Shown here one piece after another: positions 542 through 63,878 of a stretch of 64,000 nucleotides of DNA. The DNA is from Omphiscola glabra (Eukaryota > Mollusca > Gastropoda > Lymnaeidae): positions 19,888,537 to 19,952,536 of the forward strand of contig OZ024804.1 of the NCBI GenBank assembly GCA_964017045.1, read 5' to 3'. Position 1 is the first letter of the stretch. Every line of letters begins with the position of its first letter. The notes beneath the pieces are model-generated. The model saw only the letters and a list, made by a program, of their open reading frames with translations. It was not told the DNA's origin and did not search any database. The position numbers were made by a program, and so were the translations under genes.

Positions 542-690
542 CTTTGAGAATCTGTTTTATTTAACGTCATAGTAATGTTGTTATATTTCACCGTTAGAAA
601 TAAGCAACCATTACCAGGTTCTATAATAGACGCCTGCTCACATTTCACTAAAAACGTTACATAAGCCAATGCAAATATAAATGAGTGCAT
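542..690 (-). CDS. Gene H, exon 1 (partial): signal-peptide exon of the receptor cluster
   Basis: ATG at 690, 49 codons plus 2 nt, then a consensus donor (AG|GTAAGA) at 542/541, giving a phase-2 junction. The peptide starts MHSFIFALAYVTFLVKCEQ, a typical signal peptide, and ends with a T-V-K-Y-N-N-I-T-M segment that aligns with L-Q-Y-x-N-x-x-I in exon 1 of genes B, C and D and best with exon 1 of F (30130-30287). The DNA also matches F upstream of the start (see 890-1030). Exon 2 is not visible: the leftmost 290 bases are retrotransposon sequence, and in F the intron is 584 bp, so it probably lies beyond position 1. Whether the gene is intact cannot be judged. Confidence 0.6.
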
Positions 691-889
691 TTTTAAATAA
701 TTACAGAAAATTTTTCATGATTTTGATATTCTAGCTTACTTGGAACACATATAAAATTCAATAAAAGGAGCACTAATTTTTAAAAAAAAAGTATATGTAA
801 GCTATGAAAATTAAATTTGACATGATTTCTATTCATATCAGATTTATACGTTTTATTATTAAAAACACATATTATTATTATAACATAGA

Positions 890-1030
890 AATACAGTTTC
901 GATATTCTTAACTTTGTTTTTATAATATAACCAAGGAGAAGGTTAAGTGTCATTGCTTGTTGAAATAGTAATCATGAGATTTTTGGACATTGCTCCTTAA
1001 CCTTTATCATATTTCAAATAAAGAAGAGAA
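890..1030 (-). promoter_or_regulatory. Duplicated 5' flank shared by H and F
   Basis: This stretch, 200-340 bp upstream of the H start, aligns with 30496-30610 upstream of F and more weakly with about 20960-21090 beside pseudogene G. Shared words include a GTTAAGTGTCA-type core followed by a TAATCA-x-GAGATTT block (plus-strand reading). Conservation outside the coding exons fits a retained promoter region, or simply a recent shared duplication. I see no unambiguous TATA box. Confidence 0.35.
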
Positions 1031-3247: not shown

Positions 3248-6200
3248 ACTAGCGAATACCCGGCATGCGTTGCAATGACACTCATCGAAATAAAGTGTTT
3301 GTGTTTTAATAGTGTTTTTTGTAAGTACTTTTAATATACAAATTTCTCTTACCGTCTTGTGCGTATTCGAATTAATTAGAAGGTTTTTCCCTGTGCTGCG
3401 AAAGCGGCAGCGTCCTCGAGGAAACTTGGGGGCGTCCACATGGGGTTTTGCCTCTTCGTGGCGTGGCAGACTAGTAGGGGGGACTTGTCCACCCGAAGCT
3501 AAAAAACCCCGGCCAAACGCATGACTCCTAACGCAACGGGAGCTGCCACTAACATGATTACTAGTTGCTGTTAATGGATATGAAACTTGGGTGGTCACTT
3601 AAACCCATGTTGATGATTTTAGCTACGCGGCTGTGAGAAAGCCGCTCCTAGGCAACCGTTTCGTCCCGCCACTACCAACGTCCCGACCGAAAAACTCCCT
3701 GGGCGGTGGGGAGTGGTAACGCAACACCAACCCCCGGAGTGGAAGCAAAGCCGTCCTGACCCACAGAGAGTTAACTGCGGACGCTTTAAACGCAGCGTCC
3801 TCAGTCGACCGGGCCTCCCCTAGGTCAAGGGGGAGGTTCCCGGCGCCCTCCCGCAAGGGCTGGAGTCGGGTTAAGTCCTTCAGTGCTCTGGTTTGTGTGG
3901 GGGAGCGCCGGGGGGGGGGGGCATTAAGAGCTCGCGCTCGACGGCCCACCGACTCCATCTCTTATGCGACATTTTCAGAAGGTTTTTCCACGCGGGAGCA
4001 GACCACACGCAGCTGTCCATGTGGGAAGCATGGATTTTCCAAATGTATTCCCCAAACTTGTAGCGATTGATCCCCTCATGCAATAGCTTTGTTTGAAATT
4101 ATATTTATATGACTCATTTATTACATATAAGAAAATGTTGGGCCCCGTTCCCAAAAGGAATATTGTAAAATATGTGTACTAATTCAGAAACCTATTTATT
4201 AAGTCACATATACAAAATGAAATGTCACAGTTAATATTTAATTTATTTCCACCCACCTATGCAATAGGTCTGTTTGACATTATATTTACATAGCTCATAT
4301 AAGGAAAAAAAAAACAATTTAAGGCCCCGGCCTAAAGCGGAATATTGTAAAATGGTTGTACTTATTTAGAAACCTAATGAGGGCCTGCACACAACAATTC
4401 ACTGAAGGCTTATCGCATTCAGATGAATGGTAAAAAAACGCATACGGAGATTATATTTAAATAGCTCATATAAGAAAAAAATTAAAAACTGGTTTTTTGT
4501 TAAAATAAATGGGTTTTGATATCCATGGATATACTTTTGTAAATGTATTTACCTTTTGTTAACGTCATTGATTTTCTTAATTGGTAAAATAAGAATATAG
4601 CATCTATTTTTCACAACTATAATATCATTGTATTTATTAAAGAAATTGTCATCCAAGTAACATTTCCTAACCTCCATATATAGGTACCTAAGAAGGTTAA
4701 ATATTTGTCAAATTCATTCTGAGACGTATAGTGTGCTGCCTTGAGCAAATGAAACTATCGTATTACATCTTTCCCCTCCAGCAAACGAGAGTTTTAAAGA
4801 AATTAATAAAAATCATCCACGGCATTGTAATCCCCTTATTTATGCAAACACAATTTTTTGAATTGCAAATGTTTTGTTCTTATTTTGATGAGTGATCAGT
4901 GCATTAGTGAATTCTATTTGGATATGTAGTTTCGCTGCACTGATTGCATTAAACGGCATTTTCGTATTAAAAGTATATTTAAAGGGTACGTTTTTTGACT
5001 ACTTAATAAATTTCATAAAAGTATATTTTCTGAAAGATTAAAGGTAAAAAACGTATTAAATGTTAAAAATAAAAAGCTAAAGTTGTATTTAATTTTATAA
5101 AATTTTAGCAATTTAAAAACCAATCTATTATATTTATTAATTTTACTTTTAGGAAGGGGGAAATACATTATCAATTTTATTTCGCGCGGTTATTAAATCA
5201 GATAACTTTTTGCATTGAATAAATAGGCACTTTGCGCAATGACGTCATTTGCTTTATTATTTAGAACAAATTAGTTTTAATTTTATTACGCAATATTAAT
5301 AACGTACTAAAAAAACACTAAAATCAACAGGTGTTTTGGTTATCCCGATAAATCTGATTACAGTGTAATTCCTTGATCATAATTTTTAAATTAATTTTCA
5401 TAACTTTCAAAAACATATAAAATGCTTAAAATAGTTCCTTAGTTGTTACTCCAAATTTCTTTGCAAATAATATTATTAATAGTTTAAATTTTATTAAAAT
5501 TAAAGCGAATTTATAATATATTTTGCGCATTAACATTGATTTGATTTCATAAAATAATAGAAAATAACTATGATTGTTTTTAAAAATGGGAACCTATTTA
5601 AATAGTATCGGTTCTTTAGAGTTACGGTCAGCATAGATCATTCTTATATAATAGATATATTACTAGATCATTGCTATTCAAAATCAAAATACGTTTACAA
5701 AGCTATATCCGATTATTAAATGCGTCACAAAATTCAAGCTTATTTATAAAAACAACAAAAATACTCTCTAAACTAAACATGCAAAAACGTGTTTTCTCTG
5801 CTCTTGCTACAAATGGCTGTCTGTTGGCATTTGTTCAATGACGGTTGTGTTGATAGCTCTGTTTGAAATTATTTTGATAAAGTTTATTAAAGAAAACAAA
5901 ACAAATTTAAGGACATCGGCCAAAGCGAAATATTGTAAAAGTGTGTTCTAATATAGAAACATTTGCGGTAGCGCGCATGTTAATTCGCCAAAGTTTTATC
6001 GCAATCGGATGAATGGTATAGGGATGCATACGATAAGTATATATATAATATAAGGGTGGAAAATGAATTAAGGCCCACGGCCACAAACGGAATATTGTAG
6101 AATTGTGGTATTACTTCAGAAACCTACTTATTATATCACAAAATTCAAAAAAAACAAAAAAACAACTTACTAAAGTCGTATCGCATTCAGATGAATGGTA

Positions 6201-7400
6201 TAGGAGCGGATACGGATATTATTTGTTCAAAGCTCATACAAGGAAAAAAACGATTTTGGGGCCAGCGGCCAAAAATCGAATATTTTAAAAGTTTTGTAAT
6301 GAATCATTAAAATGCGCGAGCTTATGTACAACAGCTCAACAAAGTTTTGTCGCAATCGCATGAATGGTGTAGGAGCGCAAATGGTTTGAAATGTATATAG
6401 CTCATATAAGAAGAAACGAACATGGAATATTTTAAAACAGTTATAATAATTTAGAAACCTTAGAGGGCGTGCTTGCAACATTTCATCAAAGTTTTAGCGT
6501 ATTTGGATAAATGGTGTAGGAGCACAGACGAAAATAATTTTTTTACAAAGCTCATCTATGAAAAAAACGATTTTGGTGCCTACAGCCAAAAACGGAATAC
6601 TTTTAAAGTATTTTACTGACTGAGTAAAATGCACAACAATATGGACGACCACTCAACAAAGTTTTGTTGCAATCATATGAATGGTGTAGGAGCGCATACG
6701 GTTTGAAATTATTTTTATATACCTCATATTTGATAAAATTAACATGGGGCACTTTGTTCAAAACATAATATTTTAAAACAATTGTAATCATTCCCAAACC
6801 TTTGCGTGTGTGCTCGCAACATCTTACCATAGTTTTAGCGAAATCGGTTAAATAGTGTAGGAGCACAGACGAAAAGTATTGTTTACAAAGCTCATATAAG
6901 AAAAAAAACGATTTGGGGCCAACGACCAAAAAAAAATATTTCAAAAGTGTTGTAATGACCCAGTAAAATGCGCGATCTTTTGTACAACAACTCACCAAAG
7001 TTTTGTTAGAATCGCATGAACGGTGTAGGAGCGCATAAGGTTTGAAATTATATTGATATAGCTCCTATAAGAAAAAACGAACATGGGGCCCCTGGCTCAA
7101 AACTGAATATTTTAAAACGGTTATAATTACGGCCAAATCTTTGTGGGATGGCTCGCAACATCTCACCAAAGATTTAGCGTATTCGCAGAAATGGTGTAGG
7201 AGCACAGACGGAAATATTTTTTTACAAATCTCGTAAACGAAAAAAAAACGAATTAAGGGCCAACGGCCGAAAACGGAACATTTTATAAGTGTTGTAATGA
7301 CACAGTTAAATGCACGGTTAGGTGGCCAACAACTAATTAAAGTTTTAGCGCAATCCCATAAATGGTGTGGGAGCGCATATGAGACATACATACTGACATA
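3248..7400 (+). repeat. Composite interspersed repeat, copy 1, with internal ~170-bp monomers
   Basis: Starts ACTAGCGAATACCCGGCATG and ends with AGCGCATA, ACATAC repeats and a (TA)n tract. Copy 2 at 48753-53026 has the same start, the same single-copy central part (here about 4490-5780) and the same end. The right third (about 5950-7390) is a degenerate tandem array of about 170-bp monomers. Each carries an AATGGTGTAGGAGCGCATAC-type phrase, a CTCATATAAGAAAAAA phrase and alternately GGGGCCAACGGCC or GGGGCCCCTGGCTC. No transposase frame is visible, so it is probably non-autonomous or a satellite-bearing element. Its class is unknown to me. Confidence 0.75.
3391..3976 (+). mobile_element. 586-bp GC-rich insertion with 13-bp target duplication
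   Basis: The insertion interrupts composite repeat copy 1. Identical AGAAGGTTTTTCC sequences flank it (3378-3390 and 3977-3989), while copy 2 has a single uninterrupted site near 48886. It is strikingly GC-rich against its surroundings. A related segment lies in the opposite orientation at about 58745-58945, sharing the GACGCTTTAAACGCAGC block and the GGGCATTAAGAGCTC block. The minus strand has an open frame at 3958-3623, but I recognise no protein family. The long target duplication suggests retroposition (SINE or 5' part of a LINE). Confidence 0.6.
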
Positions 7401-7617: not shown

Positions 7618-9307
7618 TTATTTAGTTTCTGGCTCTAACACAAAGTAGATGATTTTACTTTGATCTCCTTGAAATATTTTATTTTGAATTACCTCAAACT
7701 TTCCCTCTTTGAAATAAACACAGTCGATAAGAACTGAGCCAGCCTGCTGTTTTGAATGTCTGACTGACGTATTGCCTGAGCCAGCTTGCTGCTTTGAATG
7801 TCTGACTGAAGTGTTGGCATTTTCATTTTCATTAACGCAAACTGATTTCCCATCGGCAGAGTTCTCAAAAGTGTCGCTCTTTGTTTCCTTAATAGGGATG
7901 TTACAATAGAAAGATGAATCAATCTCTTCGTATTCTACATCATTTGTCATACGGTGACGAAAACCGTTTTTCTTCTTTAACCAAATGGTACCAACTATTA
8001 AAATAAGAAGCAATGTAAACACCACCGAGACAGACACTAAAGCGACATAGTTGTTTGTGGAAGATTCATGACAACTGTCCAGGCTGATGAGCTTAAAGCT
8101 TGTATCGATCAGTTTTACCGTAACCTGATGTTGCCAACTGAGCTGAAATGTTTTGCTTAAGTAAGGAGGATGAGGCGTAAAAACGTATACTATCGTGTCG
8201 CAGGACAGTTCGGTTTTTTCACATGTAATGTTAACGGATGAATAGTTAGAATCCACTGGATATCGATGGATCCAACAGTTGACTTGTATGTGAGTATTGT
8301 TTTCGTCAATTGTAGCTCGTCTCTCCCTTGCTGTCATATAAAAGTCTGATGACGTTGAAGGCTGTGTTCGCATGACGCAAGCTTCGAACCAGGTTCCAGA
8401 TAAACAGTCCAGAAATCTGTAAAGATAAAACAAATGACATAGCTACACATTTAACACGAGTTTAATTTCAATTTAAACGCTCGCGGATTATCTAGTTTTC
8501 AATTAAATTTCTTTTTATTTAATTCTTCGTTTACAAAAAAAAAAAAAGTGATAAATTGAAATACAGTTGTAGAAATTAAGAATTGATGATGATTAAAGAA
8601 ATATATTTCTTTTTCAAGTATAACACTCTTTCTGTTATTATTTTTTTTGCGGGACAAAATGAAAAAGCCAGGGATTTTTCTTTAGGATTATAATCAAATC
8701 GCATCTTTCCGCGCACCTGGAAAGCCCAAGGGAACTGTACATGGATGATAAAGCTTGGTGCCAGTAGCTTCGCAGGAGTCGTTCGAATTAAAAACAAACT
8801 AATTTATAGGACATCGTCATTATTTCTCCTGGTTTGGCTTCAGAGTTTCCTTCTCTTAGATAAGTTGCCATCCAAGGTTAACTGGTGCCATCCAAAGTTA
8901 ACTGGTGCCATCCACATGAGGTGATGGTGATGTTTTTACAGGCCTCTGGTGTGTTTTAAACTCCGGACCACAAGCTTGGGATTTAGAATACTCGACCACC
9001 AGCATACCAAAATTATATATATATAATATAAATACAGTGGAACACACGCAACGTGCTATTATATAAAATGAAATATAATGTATTATAATTACATCTTTTG
9101 TTACAGTTGTTTATTTGATATGTTAAAATTTACTTAATAACATATTTCTTACCTCATAAAAATTAATTCAGAAATGTGAATGTCTGTGTTATTGTAATGT
9201 AAATCTAAAAACTTGTTACTCTCCGAAAAATTTCTTTGTAAATTTCCAGATATAAACGGAAAAGGTAAAAAATATATGTTTACGAACATCAATGGATATA
9301 GGTCCAT
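7618..9307 (-). CDS. Gene A: single-pass receptor-like protein with YEEI and C-terminal YxxL motifs
   Basis: Two coding exons, 9307-9153 and 8416-7618, joined by a 736-bp phase-2 intron (donor AG|GTAAGA, acceptor TTTACAG|A). The product is 317 aa. Residues 1 to about 22 are a signal peptide. The ectodomain has Cys 56, 66, 99, 117, 124 and 167 and several N-x-S/T sites. The membrane span is about residues 175-198, followed by K-K-K. The tail has Y214-E-E-I, Y222-C-N-I, a perfect 14-residue tandem duplication (253-280; 42 bp in DNA at about 7735-7818) and I-I-Y309-F-V-L-E-P-E close to the end. YEEI is the classical Src-family SH2 ligand and the last motif fits the ITIM consensus; both are motif matches, not proof. 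The intron holds a retroposon fragment (8640-8960). I do not recognise the family by name. An inhibitory or dual-function immune-type receptor is an inference. Confidence 0.8.
8640..8960 (-). mobile_element. Non-LTR 3' end fragment in the intron of gene A
   Basis: Shares the GTTGCCATCCAAGGTTAA segment and its surroundings with 24590-24900 and 40690-40850, and ends in an A-run on the minus strand after TGTCCCGC. It lies wholly inside the intron between the two exons of A. It contains a small internal duplication (TTAACTGGTGCCATCCA, two copies, near 8880-8915). Confidence 0.55.
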
Positions 9308-10559: not shown

Positions 10560-10657
10560 TATGTTAAAAACTTTTAACGATTAAATTTGTTTTAACGTTT
10601 AATCGACACATCACTTAACCATCACTTACAAATGTACCGGAAGTCTAAAAGTAAAAA

Positions 10658-13080: not shown

Positions 13081-13160
13081 CTAAAAAATGGCATAAGGCA
13101 AAAAATAAGTGTCGTCCACGAATTAACATCCACTGCTAAAAAAATCAGCAATTCTCAAAA

Positions 13161-18332: not shown

Positions 18333-18499
18333 CGTTTAAATTCTCTGCACAATTTAGCGGTACTTAACTATTCATTCTGCCAAGAATCCATGTTACGAAC
18401 TCTTCTGAAATGTTATAAACAATGCCTTGTTTGCAATAGAAGGTTAAGTATACGCTTTTCTCTTGTCCCCAATGATGCCTGACGTTTTTTCAACATTGG

Positions 18500-20290
18500 T
18501 AAGGTAAAATCATCTCGTCATACACGCCTTCCTTCTGTCGTCTACGCACGACAAAGAATTATACAGTCGACATGATCAGAAACAAAGCCAACGTGCCAAT
18601 CTCTGCCATTGCGTTGATAACCAAAAGTGTTGGAAATAGAATATTCCTGGAACCACTGTAGTTGATTACGGTATAATTGCTAGCGCATACATACACTGCT
18701 CATTTTTACCCCATTTTGAAACAGTAGAGATTGCTATCCCACGCGTTAATTTATTAAGAATTAGGGACGCTTTACAAAATAAATAACTATATAAATATAC
18801 TCATGGTTACACAGTTAGAAGGGTTAAATAGTGTAGATTTTTTTATATCTTTGCTGAGACTTTCAAGTGTTTTAATAAGTTGTTCAATGCTTGAGTTGCC
18901 ACTTTGTAATGGTTGATTGTATGATGGTGTAGGCACTGAGAGAACATTTTCGGAATTATTAAATTAATTAATTTTTCAAGGTTAAACAATTTTCAGATAC
19001 TATTTATCGAACTAAACACATCCAGAACATGTATAATAATTATATTTATAAGAATTCGATCAATAAATATCATAAGTAATATTTTCTGCAAGAATCAGAT
19101 TTTAATTACAAATATAACAACGGAAGTGGTTTATATAATTTATGTTATATATATTTTGTCTGTATCGTAAAAAAAATATGTGTTTAATCCATATTTTTAA
19201 ATAAAGTAAGCATCAAGCTACATATATATTCACATCCACTATCGTCAAATCAAATGTTCCACAATTTTATAAACAAATGATGAAATCAACCAACCGATCA
19301 GTTTACTACAGACATTATAGTTATCCCTGATCATGAAAAAAAGCCCAGAAATCTGTTCAAACAAAAACTCCAAAAGTATGTTCGAAATTTCAACACACAC
19401 TCAATATTCTAAAAATCATATGGTTAATCTCATCACCCGATTGTTCACCAGACGCATTGAAGAACCTTACAACCCAATGGTTCACCTGACGCCTTGAAGA
19501 CCCAGAAAACTAAATTATTCACCTGAAATCTTGAAGAATCTGACAACACAATGGTTCACCTGAAATCTTGAAGAATCTGACAACACAATGGTTAACCTGA
19601 AATCTTGAAGAATCTGACAACACAATGGTTAACCTGATATCTTGAAGAATCTGACAACACAATGGTTCACCTGACGTCTTGAAGAAACTGACAACAGAAT
19701 TATTCACCTGACATCTTAAAGAATCTGACAACACAATGGTTCACCTGACATCTTGAAGAATCTGACAACACAATGGTTCACCTGACATCTTGAAGAATCT
19801 GAAAACACAATTGTTCACCTGACATCTTGAAGAATCTGACAACACAATGGTTCACCTGACATCTCGCAACAAACATTTAAAAAAAAACACACATTCAGAA
19901 AAGTACTGTAAAGAATGAAAACACTCCTTGCAATGTTAGCAAAAGCAACATGTCAATTATTTGGAAAACTATATCATCTCGTGATAAATAAAAACTTAAC
20001 AATGTTCACATGAAGGCACTATGTGGGGAAGAGTATCATAGTTTAATATTATTACTAAAGTAAAATAACCGCTCTCCTTTTTATGCGCTCGCTGCTCCCA
20101 CCCTAATTTATACAAGTTTTATTAGTCATTTAAAATCATATTTGAGAAGTGCACCGTAAAAAAACATTTCTTAATGCTGATTTCCAGATTTATTTAAGAG
20201 CTTGGTCGTGTTACTATACTACGCCGTTATGCCCGAACAACGCTCACAAGGTTCTCAAGTAGACACACGACATACCATAAATCAATGCAA
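18500..20290 (-). pseudogene. Pseudogene G: degraded duplicate of gene F
   Basis: The locus aligns with F along exons, intron and flanks. The exon-2 start (C-A-G-T-G-C-C-T-A-C-A-C at about 18932-18943 read in minus) and the TM-coding stretch near 18590-18640 match F. The intron around 19200-19330 matches 29770-29910. The exon-1 remnant lies at about 20165-20265. Cysteine codons are lost, stops appear soon after the exon-2 start, the acceptor AG is missing and no start codon remains. The intron carries a 37-bp minisatellite expansion. It is a non-functional copy. Confidence 0.7.
19440..19865. repeat. 37-bp minisatellite, about 11 copies, in the intron of pseudogene G
   Basis: Units follow AATGGTTCACCTGACATCTT then GAAGAATCTGACAACAC with scattered substitutions. 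A single related unit (about 30018-30055) sits at the equivalent place in the intron of F, so the array expanded after the F/G duplication. Spacers are absent, which rules out a CRISPR-like structure. Confidence 0.9.
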
Positions 20291-22399: not shown

Positions 22400-23816
22400 T
22401 CATTCTTTCCTCAACTGAATATTACAATACATATGTGAATCAATCTCTTCGTATACTACTACATCATGGGAATCAATCTCTTCGTATACTACTATATCAT
22501 GGGAATCAATGTAACTAAGTTGACAACATGACTTCTTGTTTAGCCAAATGGTAACTATTATCGAGATAAGCAGTATCGTTATTATTATTGAAGGTATGGC
22601 GAGAAGTAAATACGTATTTGTTAAATATTTATTGCATGTATCCAGGCTGATGACACCAAAGCTGTTGTTGATCAGTGTTACAGAAACAGGCTGTTGCCAG
22701 CTGATCTGCAACGTTTTGAACAATGTGTTGCTTGTGTTAGGGGCGTGAGTTGCTCTAACATGTATTATCGTATCACAACTTATTTCACCCTGGACACACG
22801 ATATATTAAAATATGAAAAATAAGGATATATGCACACTCGTTTTAAAGAACAGTTGATATTTATGAGAGTTTGATTTGCGTCGGGTTTCGCTTGCCCCAA
22901 TATCGGCAGCACATGGAATACTGTTGTGTTTGAGGGTTGTGTTGTCATTACGCATGGTTCCAAGTAAACGCCTAATAAACATTCTAGAAATCTGTGGAGA
23001 TTTATTGTTATTATTAGTAGTAGCAGTTTTATATAGCGCGGTACCCCAGCCTAGGGCTAGGCTCACCACGCTGTACATACAATTTAACAAATATTATCAT
23101 GAACTTAAAAATTAACATACATAAACAAGGGAAAAAAAGAAAGGGGAAAAAAAAAAACATTTTTAATAAATTGGTTAGTTAAATTGAAATGTATCATACT
23201 GATTATTAATAGGACAATCTTACAAATAATCAAAACGGACAAGTATTAATATTGAGTTACATTGAACAAGGTTAAAAGTAAATATGTTAACATTTACAGA
23301 TCATTTAAAAAGATGCAAATTCTTAAACCGTATGTGTTTTTTTTAATATAATGATACTATCAATATATAGTGTGAATTTTTGGTTCCACAACACCTTTAT
23401 ATTCATTTAATTTTATTATTATTATTATTTTTAATCTTTCCAACAATGTGTTCAATGCATCATTTGAATAATATCAATGCCAATTAGAATATTAATTTTT
23501 TTAAAAAAAACAGCAATTACATCTACATTAAAAGACATAAAAGATAAATTTAATTTACTCTGCTAAAATATACACTCTCCTGTCATTTTGTAATAAATGT
23601 TTATATTGTAGTTACATTTTACGTTTCAAAAACAACTATGACTTACTAACAAAATTCTTACCCCATCAAACTTAAATCGTCAACATAAATATCTAGGTTA
23701 CTGTACTGTAAAACTAACACTTCGTTTAACTCTGAGACGTGAGCCTGTGTCAATCCCGATGTAGTCAAAACAATCAAGAAATAATTTAGCACAAACTGGA
23801 CTAAATGGACATCCAT
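22400..23816 (-). CDS. Gene B: receptor-like protein with duplicated YEEI and truncated tail
   Basis: Exons 23816-23662 and 22991-22400, with a 670-bp phase-2 intron (GG|GTAAGA ... CCACAG|A); 248 aa. Signal peptide MDVHLVQFVLNYFLIVLTTS. The ectodomain has the family Cys pattern (56, 65, 99, 117, 124, 171) plus an extra Cys105. The membrane span is about 179-202. The tail has Y221-E-E-I and Y232-E-E-I, a duplicated D-S-H-D-(I/V)-V-V-Y-E-E-I unit, then Y240-C-N-I and a stop. The two YEEI motifs are seven residues apart, which fits ITAM spacing. Relative to C, one base is lost right after the Y-C-N-I segment, creating the stop; decayed tail DNA continues to about 22225. It could be a functional short form or an early pseudogene. 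A retrotransposon 3' end sits in the intron next to the acceptor. Confidence 0.7.
22996..23115 (-). mobile_element. Retrotransposon 3' end (SINE/LINE tail) in the intron of gene B
   Basis: Contains the TACAGCGTGGTGAGCC / GGCTGGGGTACCGCGCTATA block and an ATTATTATT-type tail shared with 20330, 26690, 40440 and 59320. Its tail abuts the splice acceptor of B exon 2 and forms part of the polypyrimidine environment. Confidence 0.65.
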
Positions 23817-28974: not shown

Positions 28975-30287
28975 TTAAAATAAAGAATGTGTTTTTCTAA
29001 TCGTCCGCGGTGCCTGACTTGCTCTCACTCTCTGGTTGACGTAGTGAGGTACACTTATCCTGTCATAGATGTCTTCGTTCCGTCGTCTGATAGAGAAACT
29101 TATAGTTAACGTACGCAGAAACACAGCCGCCATCACAATCCCTGCCATTGCGATGATAACCAACAGTAATAACATAGGAAATATAATATCCCCGGACGCA
29201 CTGTATTTGTTCCTACTAACCCTGCAATTGAACTGATCCACCTAGTAGTACAGCTCCAGTTGCCTATAAATGCATTTCGATGAATTGGTGGTGTATTCGA
29301 TAATTGTGGAGTTTGTTTCTGCACGTTCTAATGGAGTCAGATTCAGGGACGCTTGACATAATGAAGAATAATAAGTCAAATTAGTGATGCACCCATGTTG
29401 AGTTGCAGAGCAGTTACAAGGTATAGAAACGTGTTTAACTTTGTTGATTTTGCACACGGTATCCATAAGCTGCACAGATATGTTTGATGCTGGTTTTCCA
29501 TCCTCGCAATGGGTGATTTTATGATCGTGTAGGCACTGAAAGAAACTAATATATAGGATGTATTGAAATAATTTGTGCTGTGTGCTTAAACAATTTATCA
29601 AAATATGTATCTAAGAAAACGCATTGAAACAGAAATTAAAAAATAAATTTATATAACTCGATTAAAAATATCAGAAGTGGTTTATGTATCAATAATATAA
29701 TGGAGATTATTTATATATTTTAGACTATAAAATGTGTGCGAGTATCGTAAAAACAGCTTTAAACCAAATGTGTAAACAAAGTGAGCATAATATTACATAT
29801 ATATTCACATCTGCCATGGGCAATGCAAATGTTCCACCACTTTATAAACAACTGGCGTGATCAAATCAACCAACCGGTCAGTTGACTACAGACATTAGCT
29901 TTATTGATGATGATGTTAAAACGAAGGCAATAAATAGATTCGCACAACGATTCAAAAGTCTGTTCGAAATCCAAAAGCAAAAACAAGAGCCTACTTCAGA
30001 CAGTTAATCTTAGCACAAAACTGTTCCCCTAATGTCTTGAAAAATCTAACAATGCATTCAAATTGTAATTCGTAATTGTTGATGGGTTCATTTAGAAGTT
30101 TTTAAAAAAGAAAATCAAACATCACTTACCTTTTATGTTCAGATTCATTTAAGACCATGGTCATATTGCTGTGCTGCACTGTCAAGACTGAGCAACTCTC
30201 GCCAGGTTTCAAAGTCACCAAAGGCGTTTCCTCGCATGTTACTAATAGCTTAGCACAAGTCAAAGCAATACATATAAGTAAACGCAT
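28975..30287 (-). pseudogene. Gene F: divergent receptor-family gene with an amber codon before the membrane span
   Basis: Exon 1 30287-30130 (signal peptide MRLLICIALTCAKLLVTC, donor AG|GTAAGT), a 584-bp phase-2 intron, then exon 2 from 29545 (ATTAG|T). The exon-2 start F-F-Q-C-L-H-D matches F-L-D-C-L of the other genes, and the C-x8-C and C-x6-C spacings are retained. TAG at 29244-29242 ends the frame after 153 aa. The same frame then continues without break to 28975: a hydrophobic span (I-I-F-P-M-L-L-L-L-V-I-I-A-M), a basic stop-transfer, Y-D-R-I and a basic tail. No GT-AG intron of plausible size would remove the stop. It is either a recent nonsense pseudogene, a secreted ectodomain, or an assembly error. 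The YEEI and terminal LEPE motifs are absent. Confidence 0.6.
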
Positions 30288-34327: not shown

Positions 34328-35850
34328 TTAAAGCTCCTCGTGTTCCAAGGATTCAGTTTCTGGCTCTAATACGTAATAGGTCATTTGTCGTTGATCCCCT
34401 TCGAAAATGTTTTTGTGAATAGCTTCACTGTCTTTATCTTTGAAATTAACATACACAGAAAACACAGAGCCTGCTTTCTGCGTTCTATCTCCACTTTGTG
34501 TTCCGATAGCGTCGTCATTTTCAATAACGCAAACAGATTTCCCATTGACCTGGTTGTCAACTGTGCTGGTCATTGCTTTCTCCAAACCAAAATTACAATA
34601 CAAAGATGAATCTATTTCTTCGTATACTACTACATCATAGGAATCAATATAACTAAGTCGACAACATGTCTTCTTGTTTAGCCAAAGGGTAACTGTTATC
34701 GAGATAAGAAATATTGTTATAATAATTGAAGGTATAACGTAAAGTAAAAATATATTTGTTGAATATTTATTGCACGTATCCAGGCTGATGATATCAAAGC
34801 TGTTGTTGATTAGTGCTACCGAAACAGGCTGTTGCCAGCTGATATGCAACGTTTGGAATAATGTTTTGCATATTTTGGAAGCCTTAGTTGATTTAACATT
34901 TATTATCGTATCACAAAGTACGTCACCCTGGACACACGAAATATTAACATATGAATAGTTATTTATCATGTAACTTTGATTTAAAGAACAGTTGATATTT
35001 ATGAGAGTTTGATTTTCATAGTTCTTTCTTGAAAAATTTTTTGTCACCACATGCAAGACTGTTGAGGTTGAAGGTTGTGTGGTCATTTCACATGGTTCCG
35101 AATAAACGCCAGATAAACAGTCTAGAAATCTGGGGATGTAATTTTTTTTTTTAAATAACAAAATTCATTTTTGATAAAAGGGGTTATTTTAATATTAAAC
35201 TATCATAATGCTTGTTATTAGTATAAGCTAAAAACTAACAATCGGGGAATTATTAATATCGAGTTAAATTGTAGGAGTAAATACAACTTAAATAGTTTTA
35301 GCGTATTTTTAAAAAAAAAACATCTTTAACAGTATTTCTTTACTAAAGTTAATGTTAATAGCTTTATATAGCGCACGTTTTAGGTGCTAAAAAAACTTGA
35401 ATAATATTGGTATCTTTTTCTATTCATAGATTTAAATTAAATTTACTATTTTTTTTAATCGTTTAGAAAAAAAGATGAATCCATCATTGGAAATAAATAA
35501 ATGTAAATTAGAAATAGAACTGATAATTATTTGATTTTCTTTTAAACAGATACTATTTCTACATTTAAACAATGATAAATAAATGCATATACCCGGCTAC
35601 AATATGAATTCTCTTGTTATTTTGTAATACATGTTTATAGTTTGGTTACATTTATTGTCTTAAAATACAACCATGAGCATTAACATAACTCTTACCCCAT
35701 CAACCATAAGTCATGAACGTAAATGTCGAGGTTACCGTACTGTAAAACTAACACGTTGTTAAAATCTGATTCATTTGCTTGTGTCAATCCCGATGTAGTC
35801 GGAAAAATCAAGAAATAAACCTGCACAAGCTTGACTAACAGTGCGTCCAT
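34328..35850 (-). CDS. Gene C: single-pass receptor-like protein with YEEI and C-terminal YxxL motifs
   Basis: Exons 35850-35696 and 35129-34328 with a 566-bp phase-2 intron (GG|GTAAGA ... CCCCAG|A); 318 aa. Signal peptide MDALLVKLVQVYFLIFPTTS. Ectodomain Cys 56, 65, 99, 117, 124, 171 plus Cys139, with many N-glycosylation sites and the I-S-W-Q-Q-P-V-S block before the last Cys. Membrane span about 179-202, then L-N-K-K and a juxtamembrane C-C pair that could be palmitoylated. The tail has V-V-Y221-E-E-I, Y229-C-N-F and T-Y303-Y-V-L-E-P-E, ending in an acidic E-H-E-E-L. It is the closest paralogue of B, including upstream DNA, and the most complete member, so it serves as reference for judging damage in B. 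Ligand and function are unknown; a signalling receptor is inferred from the motifs. Confidence 0.8.
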
Positions 35851-45256: not shown

Positions 45257-46077
45257 TTACGCATTGTTATTAAAATAGTCTGGTTCTGGCTCTAACTCGA
45301 AGTATTGTAGATTATTACTTGGTTTGACTTCCTTCATCTCCTTAGGAATAGTATCGCACATTCGAAATTTCTTCGATCTTTTTGGCAAGGTAGATATTGG
45401 AGGTACCGTCGGCATGCCATGATTCTGAGATTTTTTATGAGTATAAGAGTTTGTACGTAAGGAGGTCGTTGGATTGTGTGTACGATCTTCAACTCTTCGG
45501 TTAAGTGTTGATACAAATGGACGACTGTGGTAGTGGGTTAAATTTATTTCTTCGTTTATTTCCGGTCCTGACAACTTCGCCATTCGGTGTAGATTATAAT
45601 TCCTTGTCCACCAAACAATAAATATAACGACTGCTGAAACACTTAGTACAGAAATAAACACAGAAATGGGAATAAAAAACACAAATTTATTTATCGGTAA
45701 CCTTGTGCAAATCTCTACCGTGATATCCGCTAAAGTCTTGTTGATGAATGAGACGGGCTCCTTCCACCTAATCTCATACGTTTCATAACGAGTCCTGATT
45801 TTATTTTCGTAACCAATTTTTAAAACACATAAAGCCTGAGACTTCTCACATGATACGTGCAACGTTTTACCACTGGGTGATGGTAACTGATTAACTGTAC
45901 AAAGAACCCGTGTAACGTCTGTTCTATTTTCCCACAAAGTATTTGGATTATTATTTTCCACCCAAAAATCAGATGTGTTAGATACATGCGTTTTTGCATT
46001 GCAGTGTGCTGTGTCCGTGCCAGCTAGACAGTCCAGAAAACTGGAAATAAAAGTAATAAACGTTTTCGAAACATGAC

Positions 46078-46139: not shown

Positions 46140-46650
46140 GTGTGTTTTTAAATAGTAATTTTAATTTATTACACATTTGGTTATTAGAACATTGGACGAG
46201 AACAAAGCATATCTATTTTTGTGTTTAAAGCCATATATTCTAGCTTATCAATGTCTAAGCTATGTATTAATCCCAATGTTCCCAGCAGGCAGTAGTGATA
46301 TAAGAGTGGTTTGACTGTTTAAACGTATTACAAATAAACCATTGCTATTCAACATTTAAAATGGTCATTAGTTTCAAGTCATCATTACCTTTTTAAAACT
46401 TTCCTTAAAACATCTTTTTGTAACATGAATTTTTTAGTTACGTTGTGTTATTTTTTGAATTGCATAAATATAAAATTATTTCTTACCTTATCAGGGCGTC
46501 CTTGTTAAAGTGTATGTTCATGTGTTCGTATTGTAAAGTAAAGACATTTTCTTCAGCATCATCTACCTTTCCTGAAATAACGCTAGTAGACAACAGATGT
46601 GCACTTGTAAATAAGTAAATATATTTTATCAACTTATGATATAAAACCAT
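45257..46650 (-). CDS. Gene D: divergent receptor-like paralogue lacking YEEI, retaining the terminal YxxL
   Basis: Exons 46650-46487 and 46040-45257, with a 446-bp phase-2 intron (AG|GTAAGA ... TTTCCAG|T); 315 aa. An N-terminal hydrophobic stretch (MVLYHKLIKYIYLFTSAHLL) acts as signal peptide. The six family cysteines are at 59, 68, 102, 119, 126 and 166, and I-R-W-K-E-P-V-S matches I-S-W-Q-Q-P-V-S of B and C. Membrane span about 175-198. Where A and C have V-E-Y-E-E-I or V-V-Y-E-E-I, D reads E-I-N-E-E-I: the tyrosine is replaced by asparagine. The tail is rich in Thr/Ser and basic residues with P-P-x-S-T-L-P, and ends L-Q-Y301-F-E-L-E-P-E-P-D-Y-F, a match to the ITIM consensus. An (AT)n tract lies in the intron near the acceptor. 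It is the parent type of the two pseudogenes to its right. Confidence 0.78.
46082..46135. repeat. (TA)n microsatellite in the intron of gene D
   Basis: Perfect TA repeat of about 53 bp, about 40 bp upstream of the exon-2 acceptor in transcription sense. Length variation could affect branch-point spacing. Confidence 0.95.
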
Positions 46651-53026: not shown

Positions 53027-54959
53027 AGATAGAAGAAAATCAGCGGCGTTAACAAAGCGTTGGTACATTTACATAAGTGTACCCATGAATACCAAAACCA
53101 AATCATTTGAGAAAAGTGAAAATTTAATGTTTAAATTCACAATATATTTTTTATATTTAGTTTGCGAAAAGTAAAGGTGGTGTACATCATGAGTGTTATG
53201 AGATTAAAACAAAGATACTCAAGGCTATCACAGACGTGGGCCATTGCAAAAATTGGTGCCATGGCGTTATTTCGTTGTTTTTTTTTTTGGTGTAAAGCTT
53301 GTGTCTTGGATTCACTCCAAGTTATTATAATATTTTAATCTTGCCGCCATATTTTAAAATGGCTATCTATGTTATTGTATTGATTTGCTGAAAACTTTTG
53401 GATATTACTTTTAGTGGAACCTGAATTAAAGGGTGTAAAAGAGTATTCTATGAAACTGTAATTTGGGTTTTCATTATTTACTTTTTTTACAAATTTGTAA
53501 CATTTTTCTTCTTTATCTTTATAATTTTCTTGCAAAATGAACTGCCTAGTGCGTGTATTTTACTAGAGTCTTTATTGCAAGTTTTAGTTATTGGGTTAGA
53601 TTTAGGGATAAACGTAGGGTTCAGGTTAGGTTTAGTTATAATTTAGGTTTCAGGTTAGGTTAGTGGTAATTTCAGGGTTCAGGTTATGTTTAGAGATATT
53701 TTAAGAGTCCTTGTTAGTTTAAGGTATAGTTTTGGGGTTTAAACTGTAACGTTTTATCTAATTTTAGCAGATGTTGGTTATTTTATTTTTACACTGCCGC
53801 CATCATGGTTGCCACGACCTGTGAGTCCTTAAAATTTCACTGATCTTGTCAACCACGATGGCGGCCGTGTGATACGTCATTGCACCTATCAATTTGTCTC
53901 TATTTACCCATACTTGAAAAAGGATTAAGATATACTTCTTTAAATAAAATAATACTTTGTTTTACGCTTTATCAAAAATACTGTATAATAAAACTAGGCA
54001 AAACCTTGGTTAATTTTTTTGCAAGCACTATTGCAATATCCTTCACAATAAATTATATTTCAAAGTGTATATAAAATTATAAATGTGGTAAATTTAAGCT
54101 TAAGTTTTTTTAAATTTTTTAGATTAAAAATATTAATTTAGTGGCACGAAAAGAGATATGGTAGGCTGAACATTTAACAATTTAAAAATACAAGACATCT
54201 GAAATATTTCTTTAGCTTAGAAATCAGCCATCACTGATTTAATTAATGATGATTTAGTTTTTGTAATTTAAAGTCATATTTAGAGAAAAAGGGTTTATTT
54301 TAGAATATGGGTAGCGTAAGCGTATGACACACAGCATTAAAATACTTCTTAAAACTTTTAATGATGTTAGAAACGTAAACATCATTACATAGATACTTCT
54401 TTTCAAAATTCGGAATTGAGATGATGTTTCGCAATAGCAGGTAGAAATTATCGCAAAGTGCCTATAATAATTATCTCGCTAACATTGTATGATATTTTCT
54501 AATATGTATTAATACATTTTAAAGAGTTGTCAAATTGAGGAAATAGTCCAAAAGGAATTGTATTCTTAGTTTTTTTGTTTTTTTTTAATATTATTTTGTC
54601 TTTAAAATGGCTGGTTTCACTGAAATCAGAAAAGCTAGAAGGAAAAAATGGAAAAAAGTTATGATAAAACCTGATACAAAGAGCTCAACAAAACAACGAA
54701 CGTTTTGTCGAAAAGCCTTCTCGGCCGAAATAACAAGATGTGGGTAGTTGTTTTAAAGCGTTTTTCGGCCAAATTTTCACATATTCTATTTCACTTGTTT
54801 ATTTCTTTGAAAGTTAAAAATAGAAGGGTTAAACCGACGTGAAACGAGAGTGGCAACGCTTTCTTGATAGTTTCACTTATTATTATTTGCCATGTTAGAT
54901 CTTATTTTTTAATGGAAAAGAATATGAACGATCCGGTTTTTATTTAATTTAAAGGAAGT
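53027..54959. other. Intergenic DNA with degenerate repeats
   Basis: About 53575-53745 is a run of GGTTAGGTTTAG/GGGTTCAGGTTAGG-like words. About 53788-53868 has an imperfect inverted repeat (GCCGCCATCATGGTTG / CAACCACGATGGCGGC). A degenerate hammerhead-like motif lies at about 54695-54735 (minus). No gene is seen. Confidence 0.5.
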
Positions 54960-55391
54960 ATGAAAACACTTTTTTACTTTCTCTCAAATAATAAACATAA
55001 CAACGGCAAACCCACCTACAGCAGTTGAAATCACATCAATTACAAAGAGAAGAAACGAATAATTTTCTGTAGCAACTATCTAACCTTATATCAGCCAACC
55101 TTCTTTGTACTAACTCTTTCAACCTAATCTCATACGTTTCATATCGAGTACTGATTTTTGTCATAATCAATTTTAAATCACATAAACCTTCATATTTTTT
55201 ACACGATGAGTGCAACGTTTTGCCACAGATGAGTTAAAACTAAATAACTGCACAAAGCACATGCGTAACGCCTGTTCTGTTATTTCCATTTGTATTTTTT
55301 ATGCTTTTCCACCCAAAAGTATGATATATTTGATCTCTGCGTGTTTGTATTGCATGGTTTTGTGTCCGTATCTGCAAGAAAGTCCAGACAA
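54960..55391 (-). pseudogene. Pseudogene of gene D type, exon 2 remnant
   Basis: The TTTCCAG acceptor is retained (55392-55398) and the exon opens C-L-D-F-L-A-D-T-D-T-K-P-C-N against F-L-D-C-L-A-G-T-D-T-A-H-C-N of D, so the first cysteine is lost. The frame stays aligned to F-W-V-E-K and then meets a stop. Further on, DNA matching the C-x6-C, I-R-W and membrane-span regions of D persists to about 54960, out of frame. No exon 1 or tail is recognisable. It is a dead partial copy. Confidence 0.75.
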
Positions 55392-56059
55392 CTGGAAATA
55401 AGAAACACAATGACATTGTTTCAACGTAAATTAAAAGCCATGAAATAGGTTTTTTTTAAACGACATATGTTATATTTTAGTGAAGGCTAGAATACATATT
55501 ACTAAGTATGTACACAATAGTCTGTAATGGTGTGACAATAGTTAGATTTAGATCAATAATATGTGACGCTTATAATGATAAAGCGTTTGAAATCGCACTA
55601 TACTATATAGTAAAACAAAATAATGCGTTCAAAAAGAAATTTGACGCACAATTTTAACGTCTGCACTGAAAAAAAGATTTGACCAAATTTCCGTTCGATC
55701 AAATTACCGTCGATCAATTTTCCGTCGACGAAATTTCTTTCGATCAAATTTCCAGATACGCATACATTCATGTCCCGACGTGGCACTTTACCAGGAAAGC
55801 ATGATTAAGTGGACGTTGTTTCACATTACCGGCCACTCCCTTTACAGCTGCAAATCAGGGCAGGGTGGAGGTCTGACCACAGCAGACTAAAACAAACAGC
55901 CCATGGAAGTCCTTTTACAAAACAGACTCACTGACTTTAAACGTTTTTACAAATATTTATGGTTTTGTAATTACATATATCTACAACAAACTGAATAATA
56001 AAAAAACATAACTACAGGGGACATTATTTGGTCTTTCCGAAGACCATAATTGCCAGTGA
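55392..56059. other. Intergenic DNA, no recognised gene
   Basis: A short patch of GATCAAATTTCC / CGATCAATTTTCCGTCGA-like repeats lies at about 55675-55755. Around 55800-55910 the sequence is less AT-rich but unassigned. Confidence 0.45.
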
Positions 56060-59899: not shown

Positions 59900-60870
59900 T
59901 TTTCCTTCCACCGCATAATAACAATGACAACTGTGCTTACAAACATAATGCATTTAACAGCCCAACGTTTACAAGAAAAGACGAATATGTATATTTTTTT
60001 TTCAAAATGTGTGCAGTTGTGGTCATGTCTTTGATTAATAAGGTAGGTCTCTCACATTTTATTAAATATGTATCACATATAGATAACTAGTTTAATTTTC
60101 ATAAACTTATTTTAATCACATACTCTCCACACGACGTTTGCAATGTTTAACCATCGACGGTTGGCCATAGATTAGTCTCAAACAGGACGAGATTAACATT
60201 AGACTTTCCATTCATCTGCATTTTTTACTTAAATTTTTCCAACATAAATTCTTTTTTTTTGTGGGGGAGGGCGGGGGGTAGCAAATATTCTTAGTGTTTA
60301 TTGCAAGGAATTGTATCCATGCCAGCTAAGATGTTCAGATCACTTGATATAAATATAAAACAAGGTAAAATTGCCAGATAAATATAGGGAATGAGAAATG
60401 GTTGAAAACATTATCCTTCAGGTAGGTCAATTCAAACATTTATAGTAATTTACGACATTACGGTTTAAACCCAATAAAATTAACGAACTCTTGTGAAATA
60501 TTTTTTTGTAACATGCATATAAGCGATCTAACACAACGGCTCTCAACCTATGAGTCGCAACTCATTTGGGGGTCGAACGACCCTTTCCCGCTGGTCACCG
60601 AAGACCATCGGAAAAAATTAATAGTTTTCAAGTAGCAACGAAAATAGTTTTGTGGCTGGGTGTCGCCACAACATGAGGAAATGTATTAAAGAGTCGCGGC
60701 ATTAGAAATTTTGAGAACCACTGATCTAACATATAAAAGTCGTTCTTACTGATTCCTTGTTAAGTAAACTTTCTTGATGTTGCATTTTAAACTGAAGACA
60801 CTTTGTTCAGCATTTGATACCTTTAGTAATGCGCGAATAGTAGACAACAAATGCTCACTGATGAAGAATT
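59900..60870 (-). pseudogene. Pseudogene of gene D type with both exons decayed and SPIN-like MITE in the intron
   Basis: The exon-1 remnant (about 60865-60760) still reads H-L-L-S-T, then A-E-Q-S-V-F-S-L against A-E-E-N-V-F-T-L in D, and keeps a GTAAG donor. The exon-2 remnant (about 60345-59900) has a GATCACTTG... start, GCCAGCT as in D, the ACGTTTGCAATGTT block and a membrane-span-like stretch near 59910-59950. The frame is destroyed by indels, including a G-rich patch at 60260-60282. The intron harbours the MITE at 60534-60723. Confidence 0.65.
60534..60723 (+). mobile_element. SPIN-like hAT MITE with perfect 8-bp target duplication
   Basis: A 190-bp element with ends CAACGGCTCTCAACC and GAGAACCACTG, the first diverged from a CAGTGGTTCTCAA terminus. 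It is flanked by ATCTAACA on both sides (60526-60533 and 60724-60731), the 8-bp duplication typical of hAT. The interior keeps GGGGGTCGAACGACCCTTT, GACCATCGGAAAA, AAGTAGCAACGAAAAT and CACAACATGAGGAA, which I recognise as SPIN-family sequence. It is non-autonomous, with no coding capacity. Confidence 0.8.
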
Positions 60871-61845
60871 AAGCATGGAATATCACGTGTACCCATAGAT
60901 TCATTGCATTGTGCCAGAAACCAAAACATATGGTGTTTTTTTTTCTTTTAGTCTTTGGCCTGGGGTAGGCAGACCTTAGATACAAATGAGGCTAAGTAAT
61001 ATTTCTAATTCACTGGGCGAATTGCCAATACAAATTCTATACAATACCCTTTTTCAGTATTCTGTTTAAATTGTTTTGGTCTTCTGAGTGCCTTCAAAAT
61101 CGATGTACATGCTATATCAGCGACAAGTGCCATACTATGACGACCACTTGTCTAGGCCTTTGCCAGTTTGTTGTTACAGTGTCTTGTAAACATCACTAGG
61201 TTTTTTGTCTTTTTATTTAGTTTTTATTTGCCCTTGAATTGTGTGTTCACATCTCATAGTGTTGTCTCCCATTTAAATAGAATTCTACTCAAGGTTAGAT
61301 GACTCACTAGTCAATTTAGATCTCTCAAGAGCTTTAAAATCCTGCCGGTTAAACTCCTGCCGGTTAAACCTTATAAATGGCTTCACGCCTTACTGTTTTT
61401 GAAGTTACCGATAATATCTCCCTATTTGTTAAATCCATTGAAGAAACAAAATAATAAAAGTTGATTGCGTAGTTAACTAATTTGGCAGCTGATCTGAAAT
61501 ACCCCGTTAGAACAATCATAATTCAGATACGATGCCTTCAAGTGTACACTTCATTTTAACGAGTGGTCTCCCTTTAAATGCAAAGTGTTAATGATGCTAG
61601 AGTTTCACATTACAGGGATATACCATCGTTTTGTTACAATATAAATAATTACTGCTTGGTGCAATTTTACGATGGTTTCAATATGCTTATCGTTTAAAGA
61701 TGAATGATATTGTTGTCATACACACAACTTAAAACATTTTTCTTTTAAACGTCGAAATAAAATTTATACCATACCATATTAAAATTTGCATTTTAAAAAA
61801 AAATGTGTTATATAACATTTTTTAAAAAACATTTCTAAGATCTTG
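60871..61845. other. Intergenic DNA between gene E and the D-type pseudogene
   Basis: Nothing recognised. A 14-bp direct duplication (TCCTGCCGGTTAAA, near 61342 and 61357) is the only visible structure. Confidence 0.45.
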
Positions 61846-63878
61846 TTAAAATTTTGTGTGAATTGTGCAGTCACATGAAAGGTCATCCGTTTGTGGCTCC
61901 AGTTCGTAGTAAATGATCTCCGGCTCGTTTCCTATAGTATTAGTTATACTACCATTGAATGGTGACGCCAGACAGGTATTCGGTTCAGAATACACGATCG
62001 TATCACGATGTGGTCGGGCGGTGAGATTAGACGACGTGTTGCCCACTAACGGTTGGATATCTGATATATGACCATCTGTTGAACCAGGTAATAAGTCGAG
62101 CCGTAAGTTCTCTGCTTCTGTGTTTGTTCCTCTGATTCTCGCTTCACTAACGTAAACCCGTGTGTTTCTTGTGTGTTCGTGGCAACCTCGTTTAACGATG
62201 AGATCTATGTTACCATCAGACGCACTTAGAACGTTGTCATTATCTTGCACCCCGTGCGACACCCACCAGGTGGGTTTGGTTTGAGAGTGGGCAGAGAATA
62301 CAATTCTACAGCGTAAATCATGGTCTGTTAGGATAGAGTCGCTGGATCCGTGCCTAGAGTATGCACTTCTAAACATTATGTCGTACTTCTGCTTACGTCT
62401 CTGGCGTAAAGCATAGATACACAAGACGCTTGATGTTATTAAGAATAGACTGATATAAGGAAGTATTATTATTATTAGCAGTATCGTTGTACTTAATGGT
62501 TCATTCGTTGAACAACTTTTAAATACGCAGAGACAAACTGTTGTTGAAGAATTGTTTGGTGAAGCAATGTTACATGTCCTACATACACAGAGAAAAACTG
62601 TTCTTTTAGAAGAATTGTTTGGTGAAGTAATGTTACACATCACTCGAAGGTCACTGAAAAACGTCGTTACGGATGAAACGTTGTGTGACGTATTGTTACA
62701 AATGAAACATAAGTCTTTCCAAATTGGTGTTACAAAAGAAGAGTTTGTTGTCGCATTGTTATTTATTAAACATACGTTACTGAAATGTGGTTCCAAAGAA
62801 GAATCATTTAGGCTAATGCACGCATTGTAACATTCAGAATGAAGACACGATTGGAGAGATGCAGGACACTGACTTTCTGTTGCAACCAGGGTTCCGTTGT
62901 CACAGGTTTGTTTTGTCATCACATTTAGGCTTGTAGAGTTTTCACAATACTTACGTAAATACAACTTAACTTCATCTTCATTGCAAACGTTTGGCTCATA
63001 ATCCGAAATCCTATATAATAATTTAAAATGCAAATATTAATATAATGTTAGTTTAAAACAAAACACAAAACAAACAGAAACCAAATTAACGAATAAAGTT
63101 AACGTTCAATAAAATGTTGGATTTCTTAAAAAGTTGATCAACGAAAAATAAGAGCAACCCTTAGCTAATACGTTTACGTAAATGCTGTTCAACACGTCGC
63201 CCAAGATGTACACAACGAAAAGATTTACATTGGTCGTGCTCGGTAAAAAAAAAAAAAAAACAGCAGCTCATGTTAACTTCTATTCCAGTATACTGTCTCA
63301 CGTGTATTCTAGGGTTTAATAACTGTGTCTTTCATTTATTTTTATTTTTTTCATTTTGCTTTTTAAAAAAAAAAAATTGAATCCTTATTGCCACTAATGG
63401 AACATCTCATTTTTTTTTTTTTTACATATTTGTATTCATCCTTTAATAATATTTTAAAATCGTATTATGTTTTCTTTAAAGTATTGTTTTGCTCAAACTT
63501 AATTCGTTCCTAAACATCATACGATAGATAATTGTATGTTACACTTTCGAGGTAACTAAGTTCTTAAATCCATTTGCTTGTTCTCCTAGAATCAAAATAG
63601 CATACATCAAAATTAAAATCCTTCTTATGTTTTAATTAAAAATGCCCCCCCCCCCACACCCAAAACTCCCCCCCCCCCTAAAAAAAAACAAAAAAAAACC
63701 CTTATTCTAAAATGAATTTTTAAAAGGTATACTTAATTTCCTGACAAAATGGATTGCACAAGTTGAATGTTCGTCTGTTACATACTCACTGAGAACATGT
63801 CGTGTCATTATCTGTAGTGTAAACTATTGCTAAGAATCCCATCAGAAGCAATAAACATCGATCTACTGTCGCAATCAT
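61846..63878 (-). CDS. Gene E: larger receptor-like protein, different ectodomain, same C-terminal motif
   Basis: Exons 63878-63790 (29 codons plus 2 nt, donor CA|GTGAGT) and 63010-61846 (acceptor TATATAG|G), with a 779-bp phase-2 intron; 417 aa. Signal peptide MIATVDRCLLLLMGFLAIVY. The ectodomain is Cys- and Asn-rich and has four imperfect tandem units of 20-24 residues (about residues 110-198; DNA about 62506-62775), each opening with a Cys and holding N-x-S/T sites. Membrane span about 205-230, then R-Q-R-R-K. The tail is longer than in A-D, lacks YEEI, carries I-V-Y-S-E, and ends I-I-Y397-Y-E-L-E-P-Q followed by a C-x-C segment. The shared exon phase, orientation and terminal motif link it to the cluster. 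The ectodomain is not alignable to the others, which suggests replacement or very fast divergence. Confidence 0.75.
62506..62775 (-). repeat. Intragenic 60-72-bp tandem repeats in gene E
   Basis: Four degenerate coding units (starting at the Cys codons near 62772, 62700, 62637 and 62574) encode V/M/T-C-N-I/N-x-S/T segments. The two central-to-last units share I-(T/A)-S-P-N-N-S-S. The antisense frame at 62552-62830 is a by-product. Confidence 0.7.
63235..63700. other. Homopolymer-rich part of the gene E intron
   Basis: Contains A-runs, T-runs and two C-runs (63646-63654, 63668-63676) within the intron of gene E. No element is recognised. Confidence 0.6.

Follow-up and report, generated by a model that had tools for sequence, protein, structure and literature searches.

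The described systems closest to the locus reported here are two gene clusters of the snail Biomphalaria glabrata, known for very high allelic divergence and a link to blood-fluke resistance, and a few receptor systems of other invertebrates. In the available part of its description, the GRC/PTC1 cluster comprises seven single-pass genes whose membrane span is separated from each end by over 50 residues, and fibronectin III domains are encoded by four of the seven grctm genes (PMC4361660). The PTC2 cluster comprises 11 genes, 8 of them single-pass, with 166-530 codons and without known domains; some lack a span, and the excerpted text describes them as not homologous to the GRC genes (PMC7494358). 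FcoR of Botryllus and Alr of Hydractinia, as far as their partial account goes, are one-locus type I proteins whose tails carry immunoreceptor tyrosine-based inhibition motifs (ITIM), hemITAM and core YxxI/L/V motifs (PMC12065747). Oyster CgIgIT2 is, in the excerpt consulted, a mollusc single-pass receptor with an immunoreceptor tyrosine-based activation motif (ITAM) and five extracellular immunoglobulin (Ig) domains (PMC11999971). In this work, a 64,000-nucleotide stretch of Omphiscola glabra DNA (contig OZ024804.1, C12:19,888,537-19,952,536 of a 744.8-Mb genome in 37 contigs; hereafter the window) was analysed together with 100 kb fetched on each side. With fair confidence, its sequence is read as a row of tandemly arranged lymnaeid type I single-pass receptors that signal via phosphotyrosine and probably serve recognition at the haemocyte surface.

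Ten receptor-type loci lie in the window, every one on the minus strand, as the original prediction from the letters alone had it. By our own assignment of letters to loci, A, B, C and D denote genes near 9.3, 23.8, 35.9 and 46.7 kb, respectively, E occupies 61.8-63.9 kb, F occupies 29-30.3 kb, and H is the left-edge exon at 542-690; three relics at 18.5-19.0, 55.1-55.4 and 60.0-60.9 kb complete the set. The suggested resemblance of this layout to GRC and PTC2 agrees with the published descriptions in their available parts (PMC4361660, PMC7494358, PMC11426442). The window holds a cluster of single-pass membrane genes with a central span, the exceptions being B, with a tail of 50 residues, and F, whose span lies beyond a stop codon. 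As in the GRC proteins, over 50 residues separate the span from either terminus in A, C, D and E. In contrast to GRC, no fibronectin III domain was found by Pfam in six window and eight flanking proteins. The locus is similar to PTC2 in its single-pass, domain-less and occasionally span-less members (F here, genes 3 and 11 in the PTC2 text at hand), whereas paralogues there are described as less than 50% identical and B and C here are 64% identical. No mention of tyrosine tail motifs was met in the available parts of the GRC and PTC texts, the PTC2 papers not having been searched for the word.

The type I topology, the one-locus arrangement and the ITIM/ITAM-type tails are in line with FcoR and Alr as partially described. 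However, those proteins have Ig domains (FcoR also sushi domains) and an allorecognition role, and neither Ig nor sushi domains were detected here. CgIgIT2 is likewise a mollusc single-pass receptor with an ITAM, but differs by its five Ig domains. By mechanism, FcoR, Alr and also CgIgIT2 appear to be the nearest systems. Among the matches listed from literature on snails, molluscs and invertebrates, no gastropod example of an ITIM/ITAM receptor cluster was found.

The observations that carry the array are the structure and family of A-D, two counterparts in Lymnaea stagnalis (P0001 and P0002), the common orientation, the birth and death of copies, and the non-random tyrosine motifs in the tails. 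The features of A-D are as follows.

9153..9307, minus strand: A exon 1, with a hydropathy-based signal peptide and a phase-2 end; shares 39-43% identity with the first exons of B, C and P0001
7618..8416, minus strand: A exon 2, ectodomain, membrane span and tail; open model of 317 aa
7636..7653, minus strand: A C-terminal ITIM-like motif IIYFVL
23662..23816, minus strand: B exon 1
22400..22991, minus strand: B exon 2, ectodomain, membrane span and shortened tail
22445..22510, minus strand: B tandem 33-bp duplication giving YEEI-x7-YEEI with ITAM-like spacing; one mismatch in 33 bases between the units
35696..35850, minus strand: C exon 1, join agrees with Lymnaea P0001
34328..35129, minus strand: C exon 2, corresponding to P0001 of Lymnaea stagnalis
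34367..34384, minus strand: C C-terminal motif MTYYVL, short of the ITIM consensus through M at -2
46487..46650, minus strand: D exon 1, join agrees with Lymnaea P0002
45257..46040, minus strand: D exon 2
45293..45310, minus strand: D C-terminal ITIM-like motif LQYFEL

The two-exon layout foreseen for A-D is common to all four genes. Exon 1 has 155-164 bases, a phase-2 end and a GTAAGA donor, and is followed by an intron of 446-736 bases and by exon 2, which codes for the ectodomain, one membrane span and the tail and starts with FLDCL, again as expected. Hydropathy was the sole basis for calling signal peptides. In tblastn comparisons of second exons, C matches A (E=4e-59), B (2e-76) and D (1e-12), with identities to C of 41% for A, 64% for B and 24% for D, and A-D thus form one family. 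The six ectodomain cysteines named in advance are invariant in A-D and the Lymnaea protein, together with one tryptophan. The proposal of a single-pass receptor-like family holds for A-D, and its extension to F and E is less secure. A whole-genome search with C exon 2 matched only A-D at E<=0.01; such match counts are lower bounds, as the C query missed the flanking gene N1 (described below), and an N12 query found N16 and not N13-N15.

A database search for the predicted proteins, suggested along with the prediction, brought relatives from Lymnaea stagnalis and no GRC/PTC match from Biomphalaria. Among 5.8 billion proteins, the sole match to C (1 of 446 candidates, E<=1) was P0001, which is 63% identical across all of C (100% cover) and spans the predicted exon join. 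A profile of A-D gave 2 matches among 2747 candidates at E<=10 and added P0002, a partial L. stagnalis protein that is 60-62% identical to D exon 2 and exon 1. The contigs given for P0001 and P0002 each measure 2,426,623 bases, and the two proteins probably lie on one and the same contig. The E query returned none of 2277 candidates at E<=10. The A-D gene models are supported because independently annotated L. stagnalis proteins match C and D. An array truly orthologous to the Biomphalaria GRC/PTC2 clusters, with divergence past detection, would also show clustered single-pass genes, a span displaced from the N terminus, a lack of domains, and a span-less member such as F. Such orthology is nevertheless quite unlikely. 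No Biomphalaria protein matched C, the A-D profile or E in these searches, which require shared 5-residue words, have limited sensitivity and included no direct comparison with GRC/PTC; moreover, layout alone is no proof of homology because PTC2 and GRC genes are themselves non-homologous in the text available.

The array was first placed between 542 and 63878, but it continues past both ends of the window. The flanks contain 36 open frames of at least 160 aa, 28 on the minus and 8 on the plus strand. Exactly one membrane span occurs in 16 of the 36, and all 16 are on the minus strand. These frames, N1-N16, were first chosen by eye, and a later hydropathy scan (span mean hydropathy of at least 2.2) returned the identical 16, which in window coordinates extend between -47.7 and +160.3 kb. 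The remaining 20 frames (12 minus, 8 plus) include 18 without a span, one with two and one with three. N4 and N6 are short, and N9 and N11 are nearly without an ectodomain. The exon-1 module with its phase-2 donor is present in N1, N2, N3 and N6 (four of five scanned, N4 not being resolved). An exon-2 profile built from A-D, P0001, P0002 and N1 matches N6, N8 and N2 at E values of 6e-9 to 1e-3, against 0.66 for the best reversed decoy; N7 is weak by this profile (0.25), yet 73% identical to N8. An exon-1 profile matches the first exons of N3, N6, N4 and N2 at 3e-4 to 1e-3, where the best decoy scores 0.01. Moreover, N3 matches N2 (5e-17) and N10 matches N1 (1e-4). A second group, N12-N16, has a different ectodomain, and no relation between the two extended groups was found by profile comparison.

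Several frames of the flanks stand out. The sole apparently intact unrelated gene recognised by eye is a frame of 476 aa on the plus strand (L022, window coordinates 100430-101857), which we take to be a rhodopsin-like receptor. Two minus-strand frames, L023 (105817-106890) and L024 (116387-117832), have almost no ectodomain and have tails with 19 and 21 tyrosines, respectively; they are perhaps the last exons of multi-exon receptors. Apart from N1-N16, the minus strand holds an N3-like fragment at -21513 to -22113 and a small single-span frame at 147139-147516.

The tails of A-F and N1-N16, 22 in total, were compared with shuffled versions, including the F tail beyond its stop and the short or partial N4, N6 and N8. 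ITIM-like motifs have the consensus [ILVS]xYxx[ILV] and ITAM-like motifs the consensus Yxx[LI]-x6-12-Yxx[LI]. The motif Yxx[ILVM] occurs 81 times in the 22 tails versus 37.6±5.3 in shuffles, ITIM-like motifs 27 versus 9.9 times, and strict ITAM-like motifs 8 versus 0.74 times, each count being reached by 0 of 1000 shuffles. The ectodomains of the same 22 have no such excess (32 versus 32.9, 14 versus 9.9 and 1 versus 0.8, respectively). In the A-E tails alone, ITIM-like motifs number 8 versus 1.5 (0/1000 shuffles) and Yxx[ILVM] 12 versus 5.7 (3/1000 shuffles). ITIM-like motifs are C-terminal in A, D and E and mid-tail in A, B and C, and ITAM-like spacing is found in 7 of the 22 tails, namely B in the window and N3, N5, N7, N12, N15 and N16 outside it. 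Eight tails (A, C, D, E, N2, N3, N10 and N15) together contain 10 copies of a further pattern, Y[YF]x[LVI]E, versus 0.16 expected; it is absent from the ectodomains. A 12-residue C-terminal matrix supports E (0/1000 shuffles), N3 (9) and N2 (34). The YxN motif of Grb2 type is not enriched (20 versus 16.6 in 23 tails).

In three close pairs, B/C, N7/N8 and N13/N14, the ectodomain is kept and the tail is changed. B and C are identical at 448 of 554 bases before the frame break in B, with one in-frame 33-base insertion, and at 127 of 241 bases with four indels after it; the shortened B frame seems to be selectively kept because identity is high before the break and low after it. The insertion is a tandem copy with one base different that puts two YEEI motifs seven residues apart, and the frameshift truncates the tail. 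The identity of N8 to N7 extends over 248 residues, the N8 tail is shortened, and remnants of the N7 tail lie downstream. N13 and N14 are 74% identical over 138 ectodomain residues and have mostly dissimilar tails. Vertebrate paired activating/inhibitory receptors are clustered and have similar ectodomains and different signalling tails. The B/C-type pairs look like this pattern by analogy; in contrast, no Ig or C-type lectin domain was detected here. Against such a paired reading, the B duplication is recent, and plain truncation could give tail differences of this kind.

In the proposed mechanism, exon 1 supplies the signal peptide and a short strand-like segment. Exon 2 supplies one span, the tail and a disulphide-rich ectodomain that has N-glycosylation sites but contains no recognised domain. 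Ligand binding would lead Src-type kinases to phosphorylate the tail tyrosines, and SH2 proteins would then be recruited. Members that end in [ILVM]xYxxL (A, C, D and E) may engage SHP-type phosphatases and dampen the cell, and those with paired YxxL/I (B, and several outside the window) may engage Syk-type kinases and activate it. With less weight, the ligand is taken to be foreign or altered self, and the cell a haemocyte. A further step would be to regard the array as an independently evolved gastropod counterpart of the vertebrate natural-killer receptor complexes, with ectodomains not recognisable as Ig or lectin and with opposite tails on close relatives that have the ectodomain in common. 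A, D, E and nearly C would then have inhibitory ITIM-type ends, and B, N3, N5, N7, N12, N15 and N16 activating ITAM-type doublets; in B, the 33-bp duplication would have created the ITAM spacing and the frameshift removed the ITIM-type end. This extension is possible but rather unlikely.

The remaining loci of the window are listed below.

63790..63878, minus strand: E exon 1, signal peptide by hydropathy, phase-2 end
61846..63010, minus strand: E exon 2, Cys/Asn-rich ectodomain, membrane span and long tail
61900..61917, minus strand: E C-terminal ITIM-like motif IIYYEL
30130..30287, minus strand: F exon 1
28975..29545, minus strand: F exon 2, interrupted ahead of the membrane span by an in-frame TAG (29242-29244)
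542..690, minus strand: H exon 1; its broken exon 2 lies outside the window
18499..18983, minus strand: F-like relic
55066..55396, minus strand: D-like relic
60027..60904, minus strand: D-like relic, remnants of exon 1 and exon 2

The ten loci had been taken for one family. A-D and two relics do group together, but F, H and one relic form another group, to which the link is weak, and E stands apart. Clean signal-peptide exons had been claimed for A, B, C, D, E and H. A phase-2 donor, GTAAG or GTGAG, is indeed present in all seven loci having exon 1, but H is a broken copy because its exon 2 (-49 to -620) carries both a stop and a frame change. F and H have a common exon-1 pattern (E=4.5e-7), and the stop noticed in F is an in-frame TAG ahead of its span; both points stand. 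F is in register only via an acceptor at 29546, which gives S-FFQCL versus the FLDCL of A-D. It matches P0001 at E=1e-6 in a comparison of only six sequences, is weak against the exon-2 profile (E=0.38), and has no match to A-D at E<=0.01 in a filtered all-against-all comparison. From its sequence, F would be either a relic or a secreted form. The ectodomain and exon 1 of E differ from those of A-D, whereas its layout and C-terminal motif are in common with A, C and D. Its C-terminal IIYYELEPQTD beats 1000 of 1000 tail shuffles when scored with a matrix built on A, C, D and P0001, and a whole-genome search with E found only its own two exons at E<=0.01.

The three relics show stops and frame changes, in keeping with their first description as pseudogenes. 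Altogether, five of the ten window loci are broken (F, H and the three relics) and B is truncated besides, as would be expected if the region were a decaying gene graveyard with little function. This is very improbable, since the frames of A, B, C, D and E are still open over 248 to 417 aa, the Lymnaea partners of C and D are 60-63% identical, and dN/dS is below 1 in 15 of 16 estimates among A-D, the exception being A/C exon 1 at 1.12.

Several results weigh against a phosphotyrosine-signalling recognition array. The motif counts are not independent, as the tails come partly from related genes. In A-E alone, one ITAM-like motif versus 0.11 is reached by 101 of 1000 shuffles, and the ITAM case depends on the flanks because this window-only count is within chance. 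The 12-residue matrix fails for N10 (117/1000 shuffles), N15 (212/1000) and B (766/1000). E, N5, N9 and N11 match no other member of the set of 22 proteins at E<=0.01 in the all-against-all comparison. C and P0001 are nearly as alike in the ectodomain (78/125, 62%) as in the tail (79/118, 67%), and the B/C pair has a dN/dS of 0.62, or 0.78 for the ectodomain alone; a clear sign of diversifying selection is absent, and hypervariability is not seen in dN/dS. AlphaFold2 on P0001 (ten rows) gave a pLDDT of 36 and no usable model.

Domain searches gave no recognised domain. In the 14 proteins searched (six from the window and 8 of the 16 flanking ones), Pfam produced only matches below its curated cut-offs, mostly at the membrane span, and PDB profile searches of the ectodomains gave weak matches only. 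The best PDB match, sodium channel beta-2 (E=0.00026, group N12-N16), was rejected since it falls on the membrane span. No Ig domain was found by Pfam in the 14 proteins or by PDB sequence match to the ectodomain profiles, and a cryptic fold may be present. Tandem single-pass genes, N-glycosylation sites, no recognised domain and relatives retrieved only from Lymnaea would also fit fast-evolving membrane proteins of reproduction (gamete-recognition or seminal) or of the nervous system, with the receptor chemistry unchanged and only the tissue different. We consider this unlikely, because enrichment of ITIM/ITAM-type tail motifs is more typical of blood-cell signalling.

Elsewhere in the window, no intact unrelated gene was recognised by eye among 38 frames of at least 100 aa, as predicted; the remainder look like reverse-transcriptase/transposase fragments and simple repeats. 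On the plus strand, broken frames at 12526-14774 are presumably endonuclease/reverse-transcriptase-like and LINE-like, and those at 10655-12112 are taken to be BED/hAT-transposase-like. Two segments about 44.9 kb apart, 3963-7400 and 48868-53030, are 83-93% identical in parts; each holds a tandem satellite of ~340 bases and perhaps represents a satellite-carrying mobile element. A long TCTA-type simple repeat at 38679-40017 has three open frames, mostly of Tyr/Leu/Ser/Ile runs, and is not a gene. Rfam at gathering thresholds gave no match.

The locus provides a defined, single-strand candidate recognition-receptor array, now in a second freshwater snail family outside Biomphalaria. The tyrosine motifs of its tails suggest a possible signalling route, which was not met in the available parts of the GRC/PTC descriptions. 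Should the tails signal in the predicted way, the blood cells of molluscs would balance activating receptors against inhibitory ones in the manner of natural-killer cells.

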